A DNA stretch of 13,904 bases from Actinomycetota bacterium (GTDB lineage Bacteria; Actinomycetota; Acidimicrobiia; Acidimicrobiales; CADCTF01). The stretch spans positions 1 through 13,904 of the forward strand of contig JAHWJQ010000037.1 of the NCBI GenBank assembly GCA_019348305.1. Reading direction: 5' to 3'. The first letter of the stretch is position 1. Each line of letters opens with the position of its first letter. Below are positions 3,914 to 12,981 of the stretch, piece after piece. The translations under genes were made by a program, and so were the position numbers. The notes below the pieces were generated by a model. That model was not told the DNA's origin. It saw nothing but the letters and a program-made list of their open reading frames with translations, and made no database searches.

Positions 3914-4366
3914 TTAGGACGCCCGCTTGGCGATGGCGGCCAAGTCGAGTGGCTGGGGCATCTGGGCGGCGTGGGGGTGGGTAGGTCCCCCGTAGACCTT
4001 GAGCTTCTTCAACATGTTGCGGCCGAGGGTGTTCTTGGGCAGCATGCCCCGCACCGCCTTGCGCACCGCTTCCTCGGGACGGGCAGACAGGAAGTCGCTG
4101 TAGCGCTGCTGCTTTAGCCCACCGGGATAGCCGGAATGGCGGTACACGATCTTCTTGTCCGCCTTGCCCGCGGTGAGCACGACCTTGTCGGCGTTGACGA
4201 TGATCACGAAGTCACCCGTGTCGGCGTGGGGGGCGAAGATCGGCTTGTGCTTGCCGCGAAGGATTCGCGCCACCTCAGTGCTCAGGCGGCCGAGGACGAG
4301 ACCGTCGGCGTCGACGACATGCCAGGCGCGCTCGATGTCTGCGGGTTTTGGAGAAAAGGTGCGCAC
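3914..4366 (-). CDS. rplM: 50S ribosomal protein L13
   Basis: Large-subunit protein L13, an early assembly protein that binds 23S rRNA. The 150-residue product carries the family N-terminus ([16 protein letters not shown], residues 15-30), the [12 protein letters not shown] strand (51-62) and the L13 signature region around [13 protein letters not shown] and [10 protein letters not shown] (105-132). I chose GTG at 4364-4366. AAGGA at 4372-4376 lies 5 nt upstream and the protein then begins VRTFSPKP, a usual L13 N-terminus. The same frame is open further upstream, but that reading would cross the promoter region and the divergent gene at 4461, so it is rejected. First gene of the operon continuing into rpsI (12 bp gap), glmM and glmS. 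Confidence 0.97.
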
Positions 4367-4406
4367 GCGGATCCTTAGGCGGCTGGCTGCGGGCTGGAAC
4401 CGGTCC

Positions 4407-4436
4407 AGTGTAGGGGGCGGCCCCTGCCTCCGCCAA
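4407..4436 (-). promoter_or_regulatory. Candidate promoter of the rplM-rpsI-glmM-glmS operon
   Basis: On the minus strand, TTGGCG (4431-4436) and TACACT (4407-4412) are separated by 18 bp, resembling a sigma-70-type -35/-10 pair. A start near 4400 would leave a leader of about 34 nt before the rplM GTG. It lies in the 94-bp gap between the divergent rplM and threonine ammonia-lyase genes. Assigned by eye only. Confidence 0.4.
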
Positions 4437-4448
4437 CGCCGGCACCGG

Positions 4449-4461
4449 TAGCGTTGTCCAG
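4449..4461 (+). promoter_or_regulatory. Candidate leaderless -10 element of the threonine ammonia-lyase gene
   Basis: TAGCGT (4449-4454) fits the actinobacterial TANNNT -10 form and lies exactly 6 nt before the GTG start at 4461. I see no Shine-Dalgarno sequence there and no clear -35 box. This geometry is typical of leaderless mRNAs beginning at the G of the start codon. Confidence 0.45.
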
Positions 4462-5657
4462 TGATCACCCTGGCGGAAATCCGCGCCGCGCGCGAACGGC
4501 TGGCACCGGTGGTGCGGATGACGCCAGTGGACACCTCGACCACGCTGTCGCGGATGGCGGGCCGGCCCCTGCTGTTCAAGCCCGAGCACCTGCAGCGCAC
4601 CGGGTCGTTCAAGATCCGAGGCGCCTTCAACTTCATCTCCCGCCTGCCGGATGCCGAAGCGGTGGTGGCCGCCTCCGCCGGAAACCACGCGCAGGGCGTG
4701 GCGCTGGCTGCCAGCCTCACCGGGCGGCCCTCCACGATCTTCATGCCTGTCAACGCGCCGCTACCGAAGGTGGAGGCAACGAGGGGGTATGGGGCCGAGG
4801 TCCGCCTCGAGGGCGAGGTCGTCGACGACTGCTTCGTGGCCGCGCTCGATTTCGCGGCGGCGACGGGGGCCACCTACGTGCCCCCGTTCGACGATCCCCT
4901 GGTGATCGCCGGCCAGGGCAGCGTCGGTCTCGAGATCGCCGAGGAAGCGGGCGAGCTGGAGGTGGTCCTGGTGCCGGTTGGCGGCGGCGGGCTGATCGCC
5001 GGCGTTGCCACTGCGTTGGCCCACACCCGCCGCAACGTCCGCGTCGTCGGCGTCGAAGCGGCCGGCGCCGCCGCCATGCTGCCGGCCATGGCCGCCGGGC
5101 ACCCGGTGAGGGTGAACACCGAGGCCACCATGGCCGACGGCATCGCCGTGCGGCGCGTCTCGGATCTCACCTTGGCCCACGTGAAGGCCTATGTCGACGA
5201 TGTCGTGTCCGTGAGCGAGGAGGAGATCAGCACGGCGCTCCTGCTGCTCGTGGAGCGATCGAAGGCGGTCGTCGAGCCTGCGGGAGCGGTGGGCCTGGCC
5301 GCCATTCTGGCCGGCCGCGTCGCCGGGAGCGGCCCGGCACTGGCGATTCTCTCCGGCGGCAACGTCGACCCGCTCCTGTTGATGAAGTTGATCGACCACG
5401 GCCTCTCCGCCGCCGGTCGCTACCTGCTGTTGCGCGTCGTGCTCGGTGACCATCCCGGCGCGTTGGCTGCTCTCACCACCGCTGTCGCCCGGCTGGGCCT
5501 CAACGTTCTCGAGGTCGAGCACCACCGTTCGGGCCTCCGCCTCGGCCTGCACGAGGTCGAGGTCCTGGTGACGCTGGAGACCCGCGACCCGCAGCACCGC
5601 TCCGACGTGGTCTCCACACTGACCGCAGCAGGCTTCCGGGTGGAGCCGTTGCCCTGA
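4461..5657 (+). CDS. ilvA: Threonine ammonia-lyase with ACT domain
   Basis: PLP enzyme deaminating L-threonine (often also L-serine) to 2-oxobutanoate and ammonia in the cytoplasm, feeding isoleucine synthesis or threonine breakdown. The 398 residues hold a fold-type II PLP domain: the Schiff-base lysine is Lys51 in [16 protein letters not shown] (72-79) is the substrate loop, GGGGL (174-178) binds the PLP phosphate, and LSGGN (297-301) closes the site. A C-terminal ACT domain spans about 321-398, with GDHPGAL at its first loop. One ACT domain and about 400 residues match the shorter, TdcB-like or IlvA-short class rather than the 510-residue two-domain biosynthetic form, so feedback behaviour cannot be predicted. 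The GTG start lacks a Shine-Dalgarno sequence but has a leaderless -10 geometry. Divergent from rplM and convergent with the M50 gene. Confidence 0.92.
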
Positions 5658-5798: not shown

Positions 5799-8087
5799 TC
5801 AGGGCGCGGTGGTCGCCGTTGTCGCCTTGGTGGTCGTGGTCGACGCTGAAGTGTTCTCGTCGGTGTCGGCCGACGTTGTGGTCGTCGAAGTCCGCACTGT
5901 TGAAGTCGTAGTCGTCGCGATCGACGAGCCGGGCGAGCTGTCCGTCGTGGTCGTCGTCGAACTGCCACTCGAAGAGGGGCTCGTCGTCGTGGTCGCGGTC
6001 GCTTTGGAAGTCCTCGTCTCCTGGTCCTGCACGAGCCCGTTCTCGACGAGCAGGGTGAGGATCTCGCTCTCGACGGTCTTCACCTGGGCGTAGGGGTCGT
6101 CCATGTGCTCGAGGCCGTCGAGGCGGGCGAGCGCGGCTCGGATCTGCTCTTGCACCTCCTCACTCGGCATCTCCCGCAGCGTGACGACAAGCTGCACGGC
6201 GAGCGCGGTTGTCACGCACTTGATGCAGCCGCCGTTGGCGGCGACAGCGGCGTTGATCGGGGTGACGGCGTCGCTCTGCCCGATGACCAGCACCACCTGG
6301 AAGGCGATCGCCACCGTCGTGCACGAGGTGCAGGAGGCGAGGGCATACGCCTCGTTTCGGTTGTCCGCGACCTCGCCATCCTTCACCCAAACCAGGGCGA
6401 CGGCGATGTCGTAGACCACGGTGCCGTCGCGGGTGTTGACCGCGAGCGCCTGGTTGTCGCCCTTACCGGGGGCGTCGGGCAGCTCGAACGGGAAGGCGAG
6501 ACCGGTACGGCTGGTGCCGTCGGTGAGGATGTTGCGCAGCGTGCCATCGTCCTCCCGGACGAGCAGCAGGGTCGGCCCCTCGCCGCTGCGGGGGACGAGT
6601 GCGTAGGCCGTACGGGGCTCGACTCCCTCTATGGGACGGACGGCAGTGCCGCTGGCGCCCGTGCCCTTGGAGGCAGTGCCTCTGACGGCGCTGACGTTGA
6701 CGGCGTCGCGCAGGGTGCCGCGCTCGTCTGCCCGCACCGGCTGGTACTGCCCCGAGGGCCACCACGCCCAGGCGAGCAGCGCGAGCAGCCCGGCGCCGGC
6801 CAGCACCACGGCCGTTCGGGCCACCGGTCTACCCTCGGTCCGGGTCCGCAGCCAACGGCCGCCCCTGCGGACGAGGCGCACCGCCTGGTAGGTCACCGCC
6901 GCGACCGGCAGTACGAGGGCGGCCATCTGCAGCACAGAGGCCAAGACGCCGACCAGGTCCCCGTCCTGGCCGTTGGTGGTGAAGGCGCTGCCCTGCTTCT
7001 GCAATCCCACCCACGCCGTCGCCACCAGCCGAGGCAGCAGCAGCACCGCGAGCACGAACATCCACAGCAGCAGCGGCACCACGAGCAGCACCCACGCGCG
7101 CACGACCCAGCGCGCCCACGGGCGCAGCGGCTGCGGCTTGCCCCAGTTCGTCGGGAGCAGGCCGGCGAGTGTGGGCTTGATGTGCTGGAAGAGGTCGGGG
7201 ACACCGGTGAGGTCGGCGAGGATGTGGTAGCCGTCCGCCCGGATCACCGGCGTCAGCTGGCGGAGCATGAGCAGCAGCTGGGAGGCAACGACGAGCAGGA
7301 GCGCGTCACGGCGGGTGGCCAACCAAGCTCCGGTCACCGCCACCGCGACGAGCGCGTTGAAGTACAGCCCGCCGAGGTCTACGACGAGGCGCCGCCATCG
7401 ACTGAGGCGGTAGGAGTCGTCGACGTCGGTGTAGAAGGCCGGCCAGACGAGGTACAGGCCGGCGCCCATTGCCCCCGGGGTGGCGCCGGCCGCCCGGCAG
7501 GCGGCGGCGTGGCCGAACTCGTGCCAGCCCGCCGACAGGACGGTGAGCGCGAAGACGCCGAGCAGCAGGCCGGGCGACTCGAAGGCCTGCCGGGTGCCTG
7601 ACGCCAGCCCCTGCTTCCACAACACCCACCAACAGGTCACCGCGAAGGCCAACAGCACCGGAACCACGATCCACCTGCGGAACAGCCACGCAAAGGGCCT
7701 GGTGATCCGGCGGGTGATTGCGGGATCGGAGACGACGACCTTGAATCTCAGCCCGAGCAGCGGTGTGGACTTCTCGACCGCGGGCGCCGAGCCGTCTGGC
7801 TCGCACAGCAGCCCCAGCGGCGCCAGCTTCTGTTCGAGCAGGTAGCGGACGTCCTCCGGCGCCACCGCCTTGCCGCACCGTCGCCCGAGCTCGTCGGCCA
7901 GCTCCTCGAGGTTCCGCTCGCCGTCGAGCGACTCGAGGAGCTGGTAGAGCAGCGGCGTGACCTGGACGGTCTGCCCGTCGGCCCTCCGGACCAGCCTCGG
8001 GGCCTCGTTGTAGCCCGACCCGGTGAACTCGCCCAGCAGCTCCATCCCCGGCGCCCGCGTCGGCGCTCGGGCGTCGAGGACGGACAC
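5799..8087 (-). CDS. PqqD-like/M50 membrane metalloprotease with C-terminal double-CxxC domain
   Basis: A 762-residue multidomain membrane protein. Residues about 24-94 resemble a PqqD-like winged-helix domain, the peptide-recognition fold of RiPP pathways. Several hydrophobic spans follow (about 139-157, 171-188, 234-255, 262-277, 331-352, 380-402, 424-443). The M50 zinc site is HEFGH at 189-193 with RADGYH (283-288) as the likely third-ligand loop, so a site-2-protease or YydH-type peptide metalloprotease is indicated. After the last span comes a probably extracytoplasmic part of about 250 residues with CTSC (586-589), PINAAVAAN (610-618) and CIKC (621-624), then a helical stretch and a Thr/Ser-rich tail (693-762). 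The GTG start lies 3 nt after the stop of 8091-8732, implying coupling; ATG at 8045 (residue 15) is an alternative start. Likely processes or exports the upstream-encoded protein; substrate and product are unknown. Confidence 0.85.
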   Translation of the reverse strand: MSVLDARAPTRAPGMELLGEFTGSGYNEAPRLVRRADGQTVQVTPLLYQLLESLDGERNLEELADELGRRCGKAVAPEDVRYLLEQKLAPLGLLCEPDGSAPAVEKSTPLLGLRFKVVVSDPAITRRITRPFAWLFRRWIVVPVLLAFAVTCWWVLWKQGLASGTRQAFESPGLLLGVFALTVLSAGWHEFGHAAACRAAGATPGAMGAGLYLVWPAFYTDVDDSYRLSRWRRLVVDLGGLYFNALVAVAVTGAWLATRRDALLLVVASQLLLMLRQLTPVIRADGYHILADLTGVPDLFQHIKPTLAGLLPTNWGKPQPLRPWARWVVRAWVLLVVPLLLWMFVLAVLLLPRLVATAWVGLQKQGSAFTTNGQDGDLVGVLASVLQMAALVLPVAAVTYQAVRLVRRGGRWLRTRTEGRPVARTAVVLAGAGLLALLAWAWWPSGQYQPVRADERGTLRDAVNVSAVRGTASKGTGASGTAVRPIEGVEPRTAYALVPRSGEGPTLLLVREDDGTLRNILTDGTSRTGLAFPFELPDAPGKGDNQALAVNTRDGTVVYDIAVALVWVKDGEVADNRNEAYALASCTSCTTVAIAFQVVLVIGQSDAVTPINAAVAANGGCIKCVTTALAVQLVVTLREMPSEEVQEQIRAALARLDGLEHMDDPYAQVKTVESEILTLLVENGLVQDQETRTSKATATTTTSPSSSGSSTTTTTDSSPGSSIATTTTSTVRTSTTTTSADTDENTSASTTTTKATTATTAP
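5802..6011 (-). repeat. Thr/Ser-rich low-complexity coding tail
   Basis: Codons 693-762 of the M50 protein are dominated by Thr and Ser, with runs of four to five threonines, appearing on the plus strand as repeated gtcgt/gtggt triplets. Such tails are common as extended, possibly glycosylated linkers on exported actinobacterial proteins. Length may vary between strains through slippage. Confidence 0.7.
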
Positions 8088-8090
8088 GGC

Positions 8091-8732
8091 TTACTGGGTG
8101 ATCTCGGAGTTCTGGTCGGCGGTGGCGTCCGCCGTGACTCCGTCGAGGTCCTGGTTGATGATGGCGGTCTGCTGCGCGACGGCCGTGGCCTCGGAGTCGA
8201 TGGAGGCGATGTTGGCGGCCACCGCGGCGTCGATGGGAGCGGCAATGTTGGCGTTTGCGGCCACCGCTCCGGCGATCGGGGCCGCCGCGTCGACATCGGC
8301 GTCGACGTTCAGGTCGACGTCGAGCAGATTGCCGGAGGCGGTCAGGTCCCCTGTGGTCACCGACCCGTCGCTGGTCTCGGCCGGTGGTGGCGCATCCGTT
8401 TCGCCGATGGTGTCGTTGCCCTGGTCGATGGTCGAGTCCTGCGGGGCGTTGGCGATCGCCTCGCCGGATTGCGTCTGGTTGATCAGCACCCCCTGGTCGG
8501 CCAAGGCCTGGGCCTCGGAGCCAACCGACAAGATGTTCGCCGCGGCGGCCGCGTCGATGGGCGCGGCGACGTTGAGGTTGGCGGCGACGGCGAGGTCAAC
8601 CGGGGCCGCGAGGTCGAGGGCGAGGTCGACGTCGGCGTTGAGGTCGAGCAGCGACATGACCTCCTTGGTGGGCAGCGCGGAGGCGCCCTGCGCCTCGAGG
8701 TCCTCGGCGGACAGTCGCTCAAGCTCAGTCAT
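8091..8732 (-). CDS. Acidic two-module repeat protein, candidate substrate of the adjacent PqqD/M50 protease
   Basis: I recognise no characterised family. The 213-residue product starts MTELERLSAEDL, a short leader-like segment carrying its only basic residues (Arg6, Lys23). No Lys or Arg follows residue 23, and it has no Cys, His, Phe, Tyr or Trp. Residues 28-104 and 136-213 are two copies of one module: LLD, an Asp-rich strand, two AAP[IV]xxA[VA]AAN-like units 14 residues apart, SEAxAxAxQ, an INQ step and an ending near IxQ. The linker (105-135) is rich in Gly, Asp, Thr and Pro. There is no signal peptide or membrane span. ATG at 8732 is fixed by GAGGAG 6 nt upstream. It ends 3 nt before the M50 gene, strongly suggesting one operon. 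A RiPP-like precursor, a secreted structural protein or an adaptor are all possible. Confidence 0.8.
   Translation of the reverse strand: MTELERLSAEDLEAQGASALPTKEVMSLLDLNADVDLALDLAAPVDLAVAANLNVAAPIDAAAAANILSVGSEAQALADQGVLINQTQSGEAIANAPQDSTIDQGNDTIGETDAPPPAETSDGSVTTGDLTASGNLLDVDLNVDADVDAAAPIAGAVAANANIAAPIDAAVAANIASIDSEATAVAQQTAIINQDLDGVTADATADQNSEITQ
8094..8327 (-). repeat. Internal module 2 of the repeat protein
   Basis: Encodes residues 136-213. It aligns with module 1 from LLD through AAPIxxAVAAN, AAPIDAAVAAN, SEATAVAQ, IINQ and the closing ITQ, indicating internal gene duplication. Confidence 0.75.
8421..8651 (-). repeat. Internal module 1 of the repeat protein
   Basis: Encodes residues 28-104. 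It has the same order of elements as module 2: LLD, Asp-rich strand, AAPVDLAVAAN, AAPIDAAAAAN, SEAQALADQ, LINQ and closing IDQ, over 77 residues versus 78. Confidence 0.75.
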
Positions 8733-8738
8733 TCGCTT

Positions 8739-8744
8739 CTCCTC
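8739..8744 (-). promoter_or_regulatory. Shine-Dalgarno site of the repeat protein gene
   Basis: GAGGAG on the minus strand, 6 nt before ATG 8732. The reading frame continues open upstream to 8831, so this site decides the start and removes an Arg-rich artificial extension. Confidence 0.75.
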
Positions 8745-8786
8745 TGTCGTCTCCCTGCGTGACCAACCGATTCCCGACCGCGTCCG

Positions 8787-9449: not shown

Positions 9450-10170
9450 TATGGCGATGACGAGACTGAAGCGCGGGCTCAGGTGCCTGAGGGTGGCAGA
9501 GGACGGGTTGGTGCGTCTGTTGCCACGACGGGCCCACAAGGGCTCGACCTGGTTCGGCAGGATGGGAGACATCGTCCAGCAGCCGCCGGTGTGGGTCGGT
9601 GTCGCCGGCATGCTGGGGGTCGCCGGCGGAACGAGGGGCCGGCGGGCGGCCATGCGCGGGAGCGTGTGCTACGGCGTCACGGCGATTGTCGCCAACCTCC
9701 TCGTCAAGCCGGTGGTGCGCCGCAGCCGGCCACCGGGCTCGGGGAGCGGGAGGCCGGGGCCCATCACGTCGTCGTTTCCGTCAGGACACGCGGCCACCGA
9801 CCTTGCCTTCGCCCTCGGTGTCGCCCAGGAGGTGCCCCTGCTGTTCCCCCCTCTGGCCCTCGCCACCTCTGCAGCACACTGGTCGATCGTGCGCAGCCGG
9901 GGCCACTACCCGAGCGACGTCTTCTTCGGTGGCGTCCTGGGCGTCGCGGTGGCATTCGGGGTGTGGAGGCTTTGGCCCCCGGGCGAAGGGGCGGGCGGAG
10001 GCAACAGCTTGGAGGGGTCCTCGGCAGAGGTCCGCGCCGCCGACCCGAATCAGGTTCCCGGTGTTGGCCGAACACGACATAGAGGTGTCCGTCGGGCCCG
10101 AACCGGCAGTCGACAGGGCGCTCGAATCCCTCGTGCGGCAGTACGCTCGCTCCGCCGGCAATGCGATTGA
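9430..10170 (+). CDS. PAP2-family membrane phosphatase
   Basis: Type-2 phosphatidic acid phosphatase-like membrane enzyme, probably acting on a lipid phosphate such as phosphatidate or undecaprenyl diphosphate. The motifs are KPVVRRSRP (Lys93 to Pro101, matching KxxxxxxRP), PSGH (117-120) and HYPSD with His159 and Asp163. In the third motif the usual SRxxxxxH reads SIVRSRGH, so the normal Arg position is Ile, with other arginines close by. Hydrophobic spans cover about 52-66, 78-92, 122-150 and 164-182. The domain ends near residue 186, whereas the frame runs 60 residues further. That Arg-rich tail is antisense to conserved sequence of the neighbouring pseudogene, so the native stop has probably been lost or shifted. 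ATGs at 9451 and 9457 are alternative starts. Likely co-transcribed with the preceding gene. Confidence 0.85.
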   Translation: MARRPADMAMTRLKRGLRCLRVAEDGLVRLLPRRAHKGSTWFGRMGDIVQQPPVWVGVAGMLGVAGGTRGRRAAMRGSVCYGVTAIVANLLVKPVVRRSRPPGSGSGRPGPITSSFPSGHAATDLAFALGVAQEVPLLFPPLALATSAAHWSIVRSRGHYPSDVFFGGVLGVAVAFGVWRLWPPGEGAGGGNSLEGSSAEVRAADPNQVPGVGRTRHRGVRRARTGSRQGARIPRAAVRSLRRQCD

Positions 10171-11052
10171 CGGCGAAATCAACGACCCGTCCGTCGGCCA
10201 TGTCGACGCGGGCGACCTTGAAGCCTGCGGGGGTGATGCGCCGCGTCGTCACCGGCGCCGCATCGCCGAAGCACGCCACAAATGCATCCCCGTCGAACCC
10301 GAACCCGTCACCTGGCCCCGCTCGGTGGTAGTGCCGAACGGCACGAACGCCCCGGTGCGAGCCTTGTCCCGCAGCGACCCGGTGACGTCCTGCGTCTCGT
10401 AGTTCACTCCGCGCGCGGGAAATCGCACACGCTCTGCAACGCGGGGTTGCGCAGCCACTCGTAGGCGATGTTGTCGGCTCCCACGACGCCGGCGTTCGTG
10501 GCGCTGCCGGTGCTGAAGTAGAGCCCCGTCCGGTCCGAAGGTGGGCGGCATCACCTGGTGGTCGCCTCGGCTCGGAAGCCCCGTGACGATCTCTTCTATG
10601 ACGACCTCCTCCGGTGACCCATCCGGGCGGAACCGGCCGATGTGGTCGTTGTAGGGGTAGTACAGGTAGCCGTCGTGCCAGGCGCAGCCGGTGAGGCAGC
10701 CGGCCTGGTTCCACCGGTCAGCGGGGATCTCGAAGACGACGCGGCGGTCACCGGTTGCCGTGTCGAGTTGGAGGATGCGGGGCGGGGAATCGATGCGGTA
10801 GCCGCCCTCGGTGATGAAACACCTCCCGTCGGGAGCGAAGAAGCAGTGGACGGGCTCGTCGAACCCGGACGCCACTACCTCGGCGCCGTACCCCTCGGGC
10901 AGGAGGATGTCGGTCGGGTCGGGGCGACGGGTGCCCTTGCGCGCGACGTTGACGCGCTGGAGAATCCCCCGTCCGGCGACCCACACGTAGCCAAGTGCGT
11001 CGGGAACCATCGGCGCCTTGACCCAGCGGGCGGGGCGGCTCCTGGTTGGCAT
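10050..11052 (-). pseudogene. Decayed PQQ sugar/sorbosone dehydrogenase-like gene, tandem paralogue of its neighbour
   Basis: Starts at ATG 11052 (GAGAGG at 11060-11065) 4 nt after the intact paralogue and reads about 175 residues of beta-propeller sequence, including FFAPDG and FGPDGA. Near 10528 the homology shifts frame (LYFSTGSATNAGVVG). It returns near 10412 (GVNYETQDV, TGAFVPFGT) and shifts again near 10310 to FDGDAFVACFGDAAPVT, then RPVDCRFGPDGHLYVVFG. Compared with the intact copy, about 130 codons are missing at the last junction, including the WGLRNxxGLAF block. No stop follows in that final frame until inside the PAP2 gene; a TGA at 10050-10052 in another frame may be the original end. 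Damage confined to one gene, plus a large deletion, favours real decay over sequencing error. The encoded enzyme should be inactive. Confidence 0.8.
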
Positions 11053-11056
11053 GGCG

Positions 11057-12307
11057 TTACCTCTCTTCCAAAGGGATGCGGTGGACGCTGCCGCTCCCGG
11101 CTTCGGCAACCACCCCTCGCGACGTCATCTCGAACCGCCCGAAGTCAACAACCAGGAGGACCGCGTCCCGGCGGTGCCAGGCCACGTCGATCGGGCGGTG
11201 GAGGCTGGGCGCCGCCAGCGGGTGCAGCGACCAGTCGGAGGCGTCCACCCGCACCAAGCTGCGTCCGGCGCGGCCGCTCGGCGCCGTCATAGGCGCCTCA
11301 TCGCCGAACAGGGTCACGACGAGCTGCCCCGGCCACGGCGCCGAGGCGGGGAGCACGCACAGCTTGGTCGCCGAGCAGTGGGGCGGAAAGCGAACGAGGG
11401 GTTCCGCCGGCGGCGGCAGCCCATCGTGGTCCGCGAGCACGAAGGTGGGCGCAGGGCCGCGCTCTGGGCGGTATGTCTCGTCGGTGACCGGTCGGCCGCC
11501 GACGTAGTCGGGCCACCCGTACCAGCTCCCCTCCTGCACCTCGAACAGCAGATCCGGGGCGCCGCCGATTGGCCTGCTGCCTCGTTCGTCGGCGCCCTGG
11601 TCGAGGGCGAGCAGACGGCCGTCGTCGAGGAACGCCAGCCCGAAGGCGTTGCGCAGCCCCCATGCGACCAACTCGAGCTGGGTGCCGTCCGCGTTGCACC
11701 TCATCACCGCGGCCGTGCACGGGAGCCCGGCGGGCACGGCCTCGCCCGCGAGCGTCGGCGTGCCGAAAGGCTTGAACGCCCCCGTCGTGACCCGCCGCCC
11801 GGGAGTGCGCGGATCGTCGGTCTCGACGTTGGTCCCCGCGAGCACGACGTCGTAGCCGGGGATGTCATGGGCGTCGGGGATCCGCCGTAGCCAGCCGAGC
11901 TCGAGCGCGTCGAGCCCGACGATGGCGAGGTTGGTCATCGACCCCTGGCTGAAGTAGAGCTTTCCGTCGGGAGCGAAGGCCACCATGTTGACGTGGTAGT
12001 CACCTGGCCCTGGCAACCCCTCGATCACCGGCGAGACGACACCGTCGAGCGTGATGCGGCTGATGCGGCCGGCGCCACCCTCGCTGGCGAAGAGCGCACC
12101 GTCGTGCCACGTAAGGCCGTTGAGAGGCGGGGCGAGCCCGCTGGCGACCAGCGTGCGCTCGCCGTCACCGGCGAGGTGCCATACCCGGCCGCCGGGCGTA
12201 GCGCCGGCGAAAGGCAGCCCCGACTCACCTACGTACACCTCGCCGCTGTCGGAGATGGCGACGCTGGTCGGGAACGACAGGTCGCCGGCGACCTGCGAGG
12301 AACTCAT
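11057..12307 (-). CDS. PQQ-dependent sugar/sorbosone dehydrogenase-like beta-propeller protein
   Basis: A 416-residue protein of the soluble glucose/sorbosone dehydrogenase propeller family, whose members oxidise sugars or related alcohols using PQQ and pass electrons to an acceptor. Blade-type motifs are FPTSVAISDSGEVYVGE (12-28), the HVNMVAFAPDGKLYFSQG block with His105 as the candidate base, WGLRNAFGLAF (216-226) and SWYGWPDYVGG (261-271), ending in a RPIDVAWHR and VVDFG blade. There is no signal peptide, although many relatives are exported, so a cytoplasmic location or a different substrate should be considered. ATG 12307 overlaps the stop of the upstream VTT gene by 4 bp (ATGA), implying coupling and fixing the start over a GTG upstream. 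The decayed paralogue follows. No pqq synthesis gene is visible, so cofactor use is inferred from the family. Confidence 0.82.
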   Translation of the reverse strand: MSSSQVAGDLSFPTSVAISDSGEVYVGESGLPFAGATPGGRVWHLAGDGERTLVASGLAPPLNGLTWHDGALFASEGGAGRISRITLDGVVSPVIEGLPGPGDYHVNMVAFAPDGKLYFSQGSMTNLAIVGLDALELGWLRRIPDAHDIPGYDVVLAGTNVETDDPRTPGRRVTTGAFKPFGTPTLAGEAVPAGLPCTAAVMRCNADGTQLELVAWGLRNAFGLAFLDDGRLLALDQGADERGSRPIGGAPDLLFEVQEGSWYGWPDYVGGRPVTDETYRPERGPAPTFVLADHDGLPPPAEPLVRFPPHCSATKLCVLPASAPWPGQLVVTLFGDEAPMTAPSGRAGRSLVRVDASDWSLHPLAAPSLHRPIDVAWHRRDAVLLVVDFGRFEMTSRGVVAEAGSGSVHRIPLEER

Positions 12308-12981
12308 GCGGACGCGTCCCGCTGTCGTCCCCACAGCAACCACGCGACGACAGAGACTGCGGTGACGAAGGCGAACACGAGCGAGACGTTGTTGAAGCTG
12401 GCAGCGACAGCGCCGGCAAGGGCGTACAGAACCGCCTCAGGTAGGGCACCGAGGGTCGCTGCCAGCAACAGGGTCGGCCACGGCATCCCGGCCGCTCCCG
12501 CGGCGACGGCGACCGATTCCGCCAGGACTGGTATCGGGCGGCTCACGACCAGTGCGATCGGGCCCCAGCGCCGTAGCGCCTCGGCGCCTCGCACCTGGTT
12601 GTCATCGTCGATCACCCAGCGGTGAGCACCACGACCGATCAGCGCGCCGGCAGCAGCGGCGCCGATGCGACCAGTCAGCGACAGCAGAGCGCCGCCGACG
12701 GTGCCGAAGAGGGCCCCGTGGGCCACCATGACCAGGCTCGAGGGCACCGGTAGGACGACGTCGGCGACGAGCAGGCAGACGCCGATGACCGCCGCCGCTA
12801 CGCCGCGGTGATCCACCACAGAAGAGGGATCGCCCAGAACCGGAACTTCGGCGGCGGAGACGGCCAGGAACCCGGCGACCGAGAGGGCGGCGACGCCGGC
12901 GGCCAGAAGATAGGGCATCGCGAAGCACCGGCGGGCGCCCGGATCACTGCTCCGATCCCCCATTGGATCGACCATGCCCAT
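12304..12981 (-). CDS. VTT-domain (TVP38/TMEM64/DedA-like) membrane protein
   Basis: A 225-residue integral membrane protein. Hydrophobic spans cover about 22-42, 60-77, 83-103 and 106-116, then a hydrophilic loop 117-140, and spans 141-163, 168-194 and 199-217. VTT features are visible: VLPVPSS re-entrant region (76-82), GRIGAAAAGALIGRG (104-118) and SRPIPVLAESVAVAAGAAGM (147-166), with Arg148, Pro149 and Glu155 at the conserved positions. Relatives move or flip lipids, including polyprenyl carriers, or affect proton-linked membrane homeostasis, but this subgroup has no assigned substrate. I chose ATG 12981, the first in-frame ATG after truA ends (52 bp gap). ATGs at 12975 and 12963 are equally possible, since no Shine-Dalgarno is clear. 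The frame is open back through truA but that part is Arg-rich shadow sequence. The stop overlaps the next start. Confidence 0.8.
   Translation of the reverse strand: MGMVDPMGDRSSDPGARRCFAMPYLLAAGVAALSVAGFLAVSAAEVPVLGDPSSVVDHRGVAAAVIGVCLLVADVVLPVPSSLVMVAHGALFGTVGGALLSLTGRIGAAAAGALIGRGAHRWVIDDDNQVRGAEALRRWGPIALVVSRPIPVLAESVAVAAGAAGMPWPTLLLAATLGALPEAVLYALAGAVAASFNNVSLVFAFVTAVSVVAWLLWGRQRDASA

Follow-up and report, generated by a model that had tools for sequence, protein, structure and literature searches.

The window analysed here, a stretch of 13,904 nucleotides from an Actinomycetota bacterium (contig JAHWJQ010000037.1), carries on its minus strand two adjacent genes, A and B, which share a reading frame and are separated by 3 bases (Table 1). 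Gene A encodes a leader followed by two core repeats, and gene B encodes a protease that joins an N-terminal domain like a RiPP recognition element (RRE; RiPP, ribosomally synthesized and post-translationally modified peptide) to an M50 protease and a further domain towards the C terminus, the C-domain. A first-pass annotation of this DNA had described the same order, a small gene followed 3 bases on by a protein with a PqqD-like domain, an M50 protease and a C-terminal domain, and we confirm that observation. It had also taken the pair for a minimal, unusual system; instead, the pair belongs to a large, widespread family with several architectures. Overall, the earlier reading is partly supported.

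The A/B pair and its spread

Five residues in the leader of A (L20, P21, K23, E24 and V25) are invariant across 60 sequences. Self-comparison of A revealed two repeats of about 78 residues at an offset of 108, with 37 of 65 positions identical; none of 200 shuffles exceeded 20 identities. The core is acidic and almost free of lysine and arginine, its repeats are periodic in N, Q, S and A, and cores are strongly conserved in an alignment of relatives. At loci of the window's type (type I) the product has about 185 residues, and none of 60 aligned relatives of A has a cysteine after the leader motif. A matched no Pfam family at E values up to 10 and had no sequence relative in the PDB, so curli or another known repeat family was rejected as its identity. 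A reading of the pair as a defence system was also rejected, because PADLOC gave no match for A or B.

The HExxH and Asp-Gly motifs of B are both invariant in all 17 aligned rows, and HExGH is absent from only one of 81 type I sequences, L016, a 77-residue piece cut by a contig end. For a model of A and B fused, plain Foldseek returned nothing with E < 0.001 (top row SpoIVFB at 0.12), and only a second look with VIA-align was informative. The protease core matched RseP and the site-2 protease S2P, and the N terminus showed a winged-helix, RRE-like fold whose matches include TbiB1 with leader; rows for G-protein-coupled receptors were set aside as generic helical bundles. B stays below the gathering score of Pfam PF02163 (14.8 bits versus 27.2), and we regard it as kin to M50/site-2 proteases despite this because its fold matches RseP and S2P. 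Likewise, the N-terminal domain is alike in fold to RRE/PqqD domains but too distant in sequence for the curated models (TIGR04353, 13.6 bits versus a cut-off of 35; NF050149 ApyI, 17.7 versus 200). An RRE-like fold was thus found where a PqqD-like one had been proposed.

Some M50 proteases, among them RseP and SpoIVFB, act in signalling. The fold matches to these proteases would suit regulated intramembrane proteolysis, in which A would be a regulator or inhibitor linked to the membrane and be released inward when the C-domain senses an outside signal; its CxxC pairs could sense redox. However, A has neither a Pfam domain nor a strong hydrophobic stretch, the tandem paralogous leader-bearing peptides of related loci (below) resemble products rather than regulators, and the type of RRE points to leader reading. 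We consider this alternative very improbable.

A protein search with A gave 4100 relatives at E ≤ 0.001 among 7999 candidates scored, and scanning genomes located 211 confirmed sites. In the best 80 of these 211, to which the locus counts refer, a protease match lies 3′ of A on the same strand in every case (80/80), at −64 to 197 nucleotides from the A frame (median 64). A and B adjoin in frame at 30 of the 80, close to the third expected by chance, and for that reason no read-through fusion is claimed. We also surveyed 296 genomes drawn evenly from one actinobacterial class, the actinomycetes. A-profile matches occur in 24 of them and the protease in all 24, in 23 at E ≤ 1e-20; the protease of the remaining genome, G089, is cut by a contig end. 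The small family, whose co-occurrence with the protease had been put forward as a check, was thus never found without it. The protease profile matches 52 genomes (46 above 300 bits and 6 distant ones at about 77-98 bits), and the 32 genomes with C-domain profile matches all fall within these 52. A partnership between A and B is well supported.

Core proteases above 300 bits thus occur in 46 of 296 genomes of a single class, yet the pair is apparently undescribed: we found no paper in the open-licence literature recognisable as describing it, which is weak evidence of absence. Geodermatophilus ruber DSM 45317, Blastococcus aurantiacus DSM 44268 and Arthrobacter oryzae DSM 25586 hold the pair, so predictions about it are testable in named strains.

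A rough gene caller recovered the protease in 80 of the 81 type I sequences and the small gene in 65 of them; the next commonest neighbour family occurs in at most 13. Genes outside the pair were named and assigned to families by eye, on the basis of their first residues. Read in this way, no modification or transport family was seen to recur beside the pair, in keeping with the earlier remark that no modifying enzyme or transporter is adjacent, and no third gene recurs across types I-V among the neighbourhoods compared.

A repeat common to substrate and C-domain

Profile comparison aligned residues 160-190 of A with residues 604-634 of B without a gap over 31 columns (hhalign score 28.3). None of 300 column shuffles reached this score (mean 11.9, sd 2.4, maximum 19.9), a reversed-profile control gave 16.8, and of 12 tiles placed along B, the overlapping one at 561-672 alone scored high (29.1; the others at most 16.8). 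The shared register is N/D-x5-N-x2-S-x2-S-x5-A-x-Q in the substrate, and B has C-x2-C for S-x2-S. This register was reproduced with independent alignments from type II (score 17.7, P 0.038, weak taken alone), and types III and IV show it by reading. Judged by these comparisons, the core repeat of the substrate recurs in register within the C-domain of B, with CxxC replacing SxxS, an observation that is new here.

A repeat common to a subunit and a membrane-held domain would also fit an extracellular fibre or coat, in which the core polymerises into a beta-rich, curli-like structure and the C-domain nucleates it in the manner of CsgB; this would be a sharper form of the capture step proposed below. 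The N/Q/S/A-periodic repeats point the same way, as do the three paralogous peptides of type II loci and the beta strands predicted, at low confidence, in both repeats by an AlphaFold model of A alone. However, that beta model is unreliable, neither A nor the short peptides tested have a Pfam family above chance, and the PDB offers no sequence relative of A. We regard a fibre as a tentative possibility.

Table 1. Features of genes A and B in the window.
Feature	Positions	Strand	Description or basis
Gene A	8091..8732	minus	213 aa including leader and two-repeat substrate protein; stop included
Gene B	5799..8087	minus	762-aa RRE-M50-C-domain protease; stop included
Shine-Dalgarno-like AGAGGAG 5′ of A	8739..8745	minus	read from sequence
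Leader of A, residues 1-27	8652..8732	minus	conserved LPxKEV motif; leader/core border inferred
Core repeat 1 of A, residues 28-107	8412..8651	minus	self-comparison
Variable linker of A, residues 108-135	8328..8411	minus	alignment
Core repeat 2 of A, residues 136-213	8094..8327	minus	self-comparison
A residues 160-190, gapless match to protease C-domain	8163..8255	minus	profile comparison with B
RRE/PqqD-like domain, B 5-98	7794..8075	minus	fold matches to TbiB1, PqqD, LynD
HEFGH zinc motif, B 189-193	7509..7523	minus	sequence and alignment
RADGYH, second catalytic motif (DG), B 283-288	7224..7241	minus	alignment
C-domain, B 534-645	6153..6488	minus	two CxxC-containing half-repeats
CxxC 1, B 586-589	6321..6332	minus	
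B 604-634, gapless alignment to A 160-190	6186..6278	minus	profile comparison
CxxC 2, B 621-624	6216..6227	minus	
Ser/Thr-rich C-terminal tail of B, residues 690-762	5802..6020	minus	

The neighbours scanned in the window are ordinary: threonine ammonia-lyase (IlvA), OmdA-like, PAP2, phosphoglucomutase, ribosomal S9 and L13, VTT and pseudouridine synthase. Two overlapping open reading frames (ORFs) in different frames at 9764-11109 (minus) read like one similar protein changing frame and adjoin a GSDH-like beta-propeller gene at 11057-12343; they have no Pfam match at 0.001 and may reflect either an error or decay. The ribosomal L13 ORF at 3914-4873 (minus) has about 180 extra N-terminal residues, and its start was probably called too far upstream.

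Related loci with short peptides

In relatives of the pair, short peptides, one to three in number, stand in place of A; their leader is related to that of A and stays recognisable across types I-V while the cores change. Typing left out L144 and L155, which are unclassed, and L156 and L162, which are pieces or broken. Type II accounts for 7 of the 24 A-positive genomes (eight loci, L095-L102); all eight loci encode three peptides of about 70 residues, each with a single core and a leader like LTDEELxxExGEELPDREAMSL. Here the protease match ends before the C-domain, which is a separate protein, encoded at some loci on the opposite strand, with an N terminus that by eye is basic, then hydrophobic, and resembles a signal peptide. 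Because the split form bears such a start, we place the C-domain outside the cell, and an outer-side position is supported by computation. The arrangement first annotated, a leader-bearing substrate with an RRE-M50 protease and an export-side C-domain, gains support from this split form and from the fold matches. At L096, a type II locus, the protease is missing from the stretch itself and lies on another contig of the same genome (L163). C-domain proteins at L170:8833-10101 and L171:5975-6619 have no protease match on the same stretch; their genomes carry the protease elsewhere. Type II neighbour genes each occur in at most three of the eight loci.

Types III and IV comprise nine loci (L136-L143, L145) with one or two short peptides each (leader examples: type III, HELEAESAELLPGREAL; type IV, ADLDAETATPLPRRETL). 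A C-domain match lies beside the protease in eight of the nine; at the exception, L137, the stretch ends inside the protease. By eye, all six type III loci (L136-L140, L145) have an opposite-strand gene that reads like an XRE/helix-turn-helix regulator, and all three type IV loci have one regulator-looking gene on the opposite strand. Type V (11 loci: L146-L154, L164, L165) combines the same protease and leader style with different cores (FDPTFFPVNSPWSN..., NSPGSNN...) and, at 5 of the 11, a protein of 551-609 residues; from its sequences we read it as a further branch of leader/RRE-M50 systems. Peptide P0254, of 117 residues, has one leader, two short cores and a glycine-rich linker, a layout that marks it as intermediate between short-peptide and large-protein substrates. 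At L144:8618-8908, a 97-residue ORF with a leader-like GELLPER motif and a Gly-rich, Cys-containing core lies beside a 379-bit protease and fits no type.

The leader search pattern was drawn up after the loci had been inspected, and its counts are descriptive. It matched 80 of 798 upstream ORFs versus 133 of 17335 ORFs of all positions at the 80 type I loci, and 32 of 246 versus 43 of 4817 at 25 further loci above 300 bits, 20 of which have one upstream; at loci below 200 bits it was found upstream in none of four. No Pfam family rose above chance for the short peptides tested. Sub-cut-off matches of the split C-domain to bindosome_BasB (0.26), Thioredoxin_3 (0.14), WhiB (0.03) and ENOD93 (0.048), and of a type III peptide to DUF1344 (0.062), were judged to be chance.

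The pair could also belong to an unmodified or cryptically modified RiPP-like system, in which the core is a diffusible bacteriocin or signal, tailoring and export genes lie elsewhere and the C-domain is a leftover or an immunity or receptor part. The fusion of an RRE to a site-2 protease and the multiple precursors per locus are as in daptides (PMC10036551); all type II loci have three such precursors, and the nearest NCBIfam model to B is that of the daptide M50 protease (110 bits). Against this stand the length, acidity and lack of post-leader cysteine of the type I product, the strong conservation of cores and the neighbourhoods, in which by eye no modification or transport family recurs and the next type I family stays at 13 of 81. 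A RiPP-like system also leaves unexplained why the C-domain copies the core repeat, and we judge it unlikely.

Proposed mechanism and known systems

Our preferred reading, which we hold to be moderately probable, is a two-gene, leader-guided system for processing and display. The leader of A (about residues 1-27, with its LPxKE motif) would be bound in the cytoplasm by the RRE of B. The M50 intramembrane protease would then cut A near the leader/core border, a step we infer because the catalytic motifs of B are intact. The repeat core would be released on the outer side, passing through the protease or alongside it, B itself being by analogy the candidate for its passage, without an ABC transporter and without chemical modification. 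Outside, the C-domain would take up the core by like-on-like packing and could anchor, chaperone or nucleate it, perhaps as part of a larger assembly; fibre nucleation would be the boldest extension of this mechanism.

Docking of the leader on the RRE is indirectly supported by modelling. In AlphaFold runs whose alignments differ in depth (60 rows for A alone, 25 for A joined to B), the two leader blocks have pLDDT (predicted local distance difference test) values of 54 and 52 in A alone and of 73 and 79 in the joined model (mean 60.2), which places a helix at residues 9-14 and a strand at 17-19. Sequence distances were also correlated, conditional on the M50 core, across 65 type I pairs; the coefficients, which ignore tree structure and are not very specific, were 0.42 for leader and RRE versus 0.22 for core and RRE, and 0.56 for core and C-domain versus 0.50 for leader and C-domain. 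These values suggest that the leader of A may bind the RRE of B.

Several observations weigh against the proposed mechanism. The correlation of the leader with the C-domain is as high as that with the RRE. The core of A lies mostly below pLDDT 40 in the joined model, and the model of A alone is poor (mean pLDDT 44.5) and was left out of the fold search; the fold of the core is not given by the model. Hydrophobicity in A peaks at a modest Kyte-Doolittle score of 1.44 over 19 residues, and A is no obvious transmembrane substrate. C-domain genes also occur apart from the protease, and the 11 type V loci have no C-domain match, which implies that the capture step is not general to all leader/RRE-M50 systems. 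As to the shared repeat, the type II comparison is the weak one given above, and peptide and C-domain 21-mers, which were chosen by pattern and whose shuffled null was unfair and left unused, find their closest agreement inside the same type in just three of four C-domain columns, type I, that of the window, being the exception.

If the mechanism holds, RRE-guided leader reading, so far a matter of small natural products, would take in a large, structural-type protein, a protease would display outside the cell a copy of the repeat found in its own substrate, and actinobacteria would have an undescribed route for releasing a surface or secreted protein and anchoring it. We think it possible, if doubtful, that the pair represents a new secretion-and-assembly route, in which the leader is read inside, release needs no transporter and a CxxC copy of the repeat anchors or nucleates a structure, on a chassis with interchangeable cores across actinomycetes.

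In curli, the membrane-held nucleator CsgB is built from the repeat of the secreted subunit, CsgA. The C-domain and substrate of the A/B pair share a repeat in a similar way, a likeness in working only: no sequence relation to A was found, and the secretion route differs.

The pair works like daptide MpaP or epipeptide EpeP, yet falls short of the models for both. MpaP is an RRE-dependent intramembrane peptidase that removes the leader; its RRE is joined to the N terminus of an M50 site-2 protease, and each locus encodes several short precursors (PMC10036551). B scores 110.1 bits with the daptide model NF041824 daptide_HExxH, whose cut-off is 300. Daptide precursors have an invariant C-terminal threonine, in which none of 81 A frames ends (Gln 61, Pro 7, Ala 6, Gly 5, Asn 1, Asp 1). 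Daptide loci have an adjacent oxidative decarboxylase and aminotransferase, whereas type I loci have no third family beyond the 13 of 81, and none was found among the window neighbours scanned; A/B in turn has a large acidic repeat product and an extra C-domain. L157 looks like a daptide locus: its protease scores 96 bits with the family profile, versus about 341-575 for unbroken members, and three peptides of about 50 residues (L157:7938-8626), ending in Thr and with an ELE..EAP motif, lie upstream of this distant M50 protein.

The M50 protease EpeP has been proposed both to cleave and to export a ribosomal peptide (PMC10885120), and B is likened to EpeP/YydH for the cleavage and export of a ribosomal product proposed here. 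With NF058609 YydH/LiaK, B scores 42.7 bits versus 225, in a match limited to its residues 185-296. Unlike at epipeptide loci, no third family recurs beside the A/B pair, radical SAM genes not having been searched by name. PMC10036551 sorted RRE families and chose one set for study; because that set was selected, the A/B family may be among the RRE families left unselected there.

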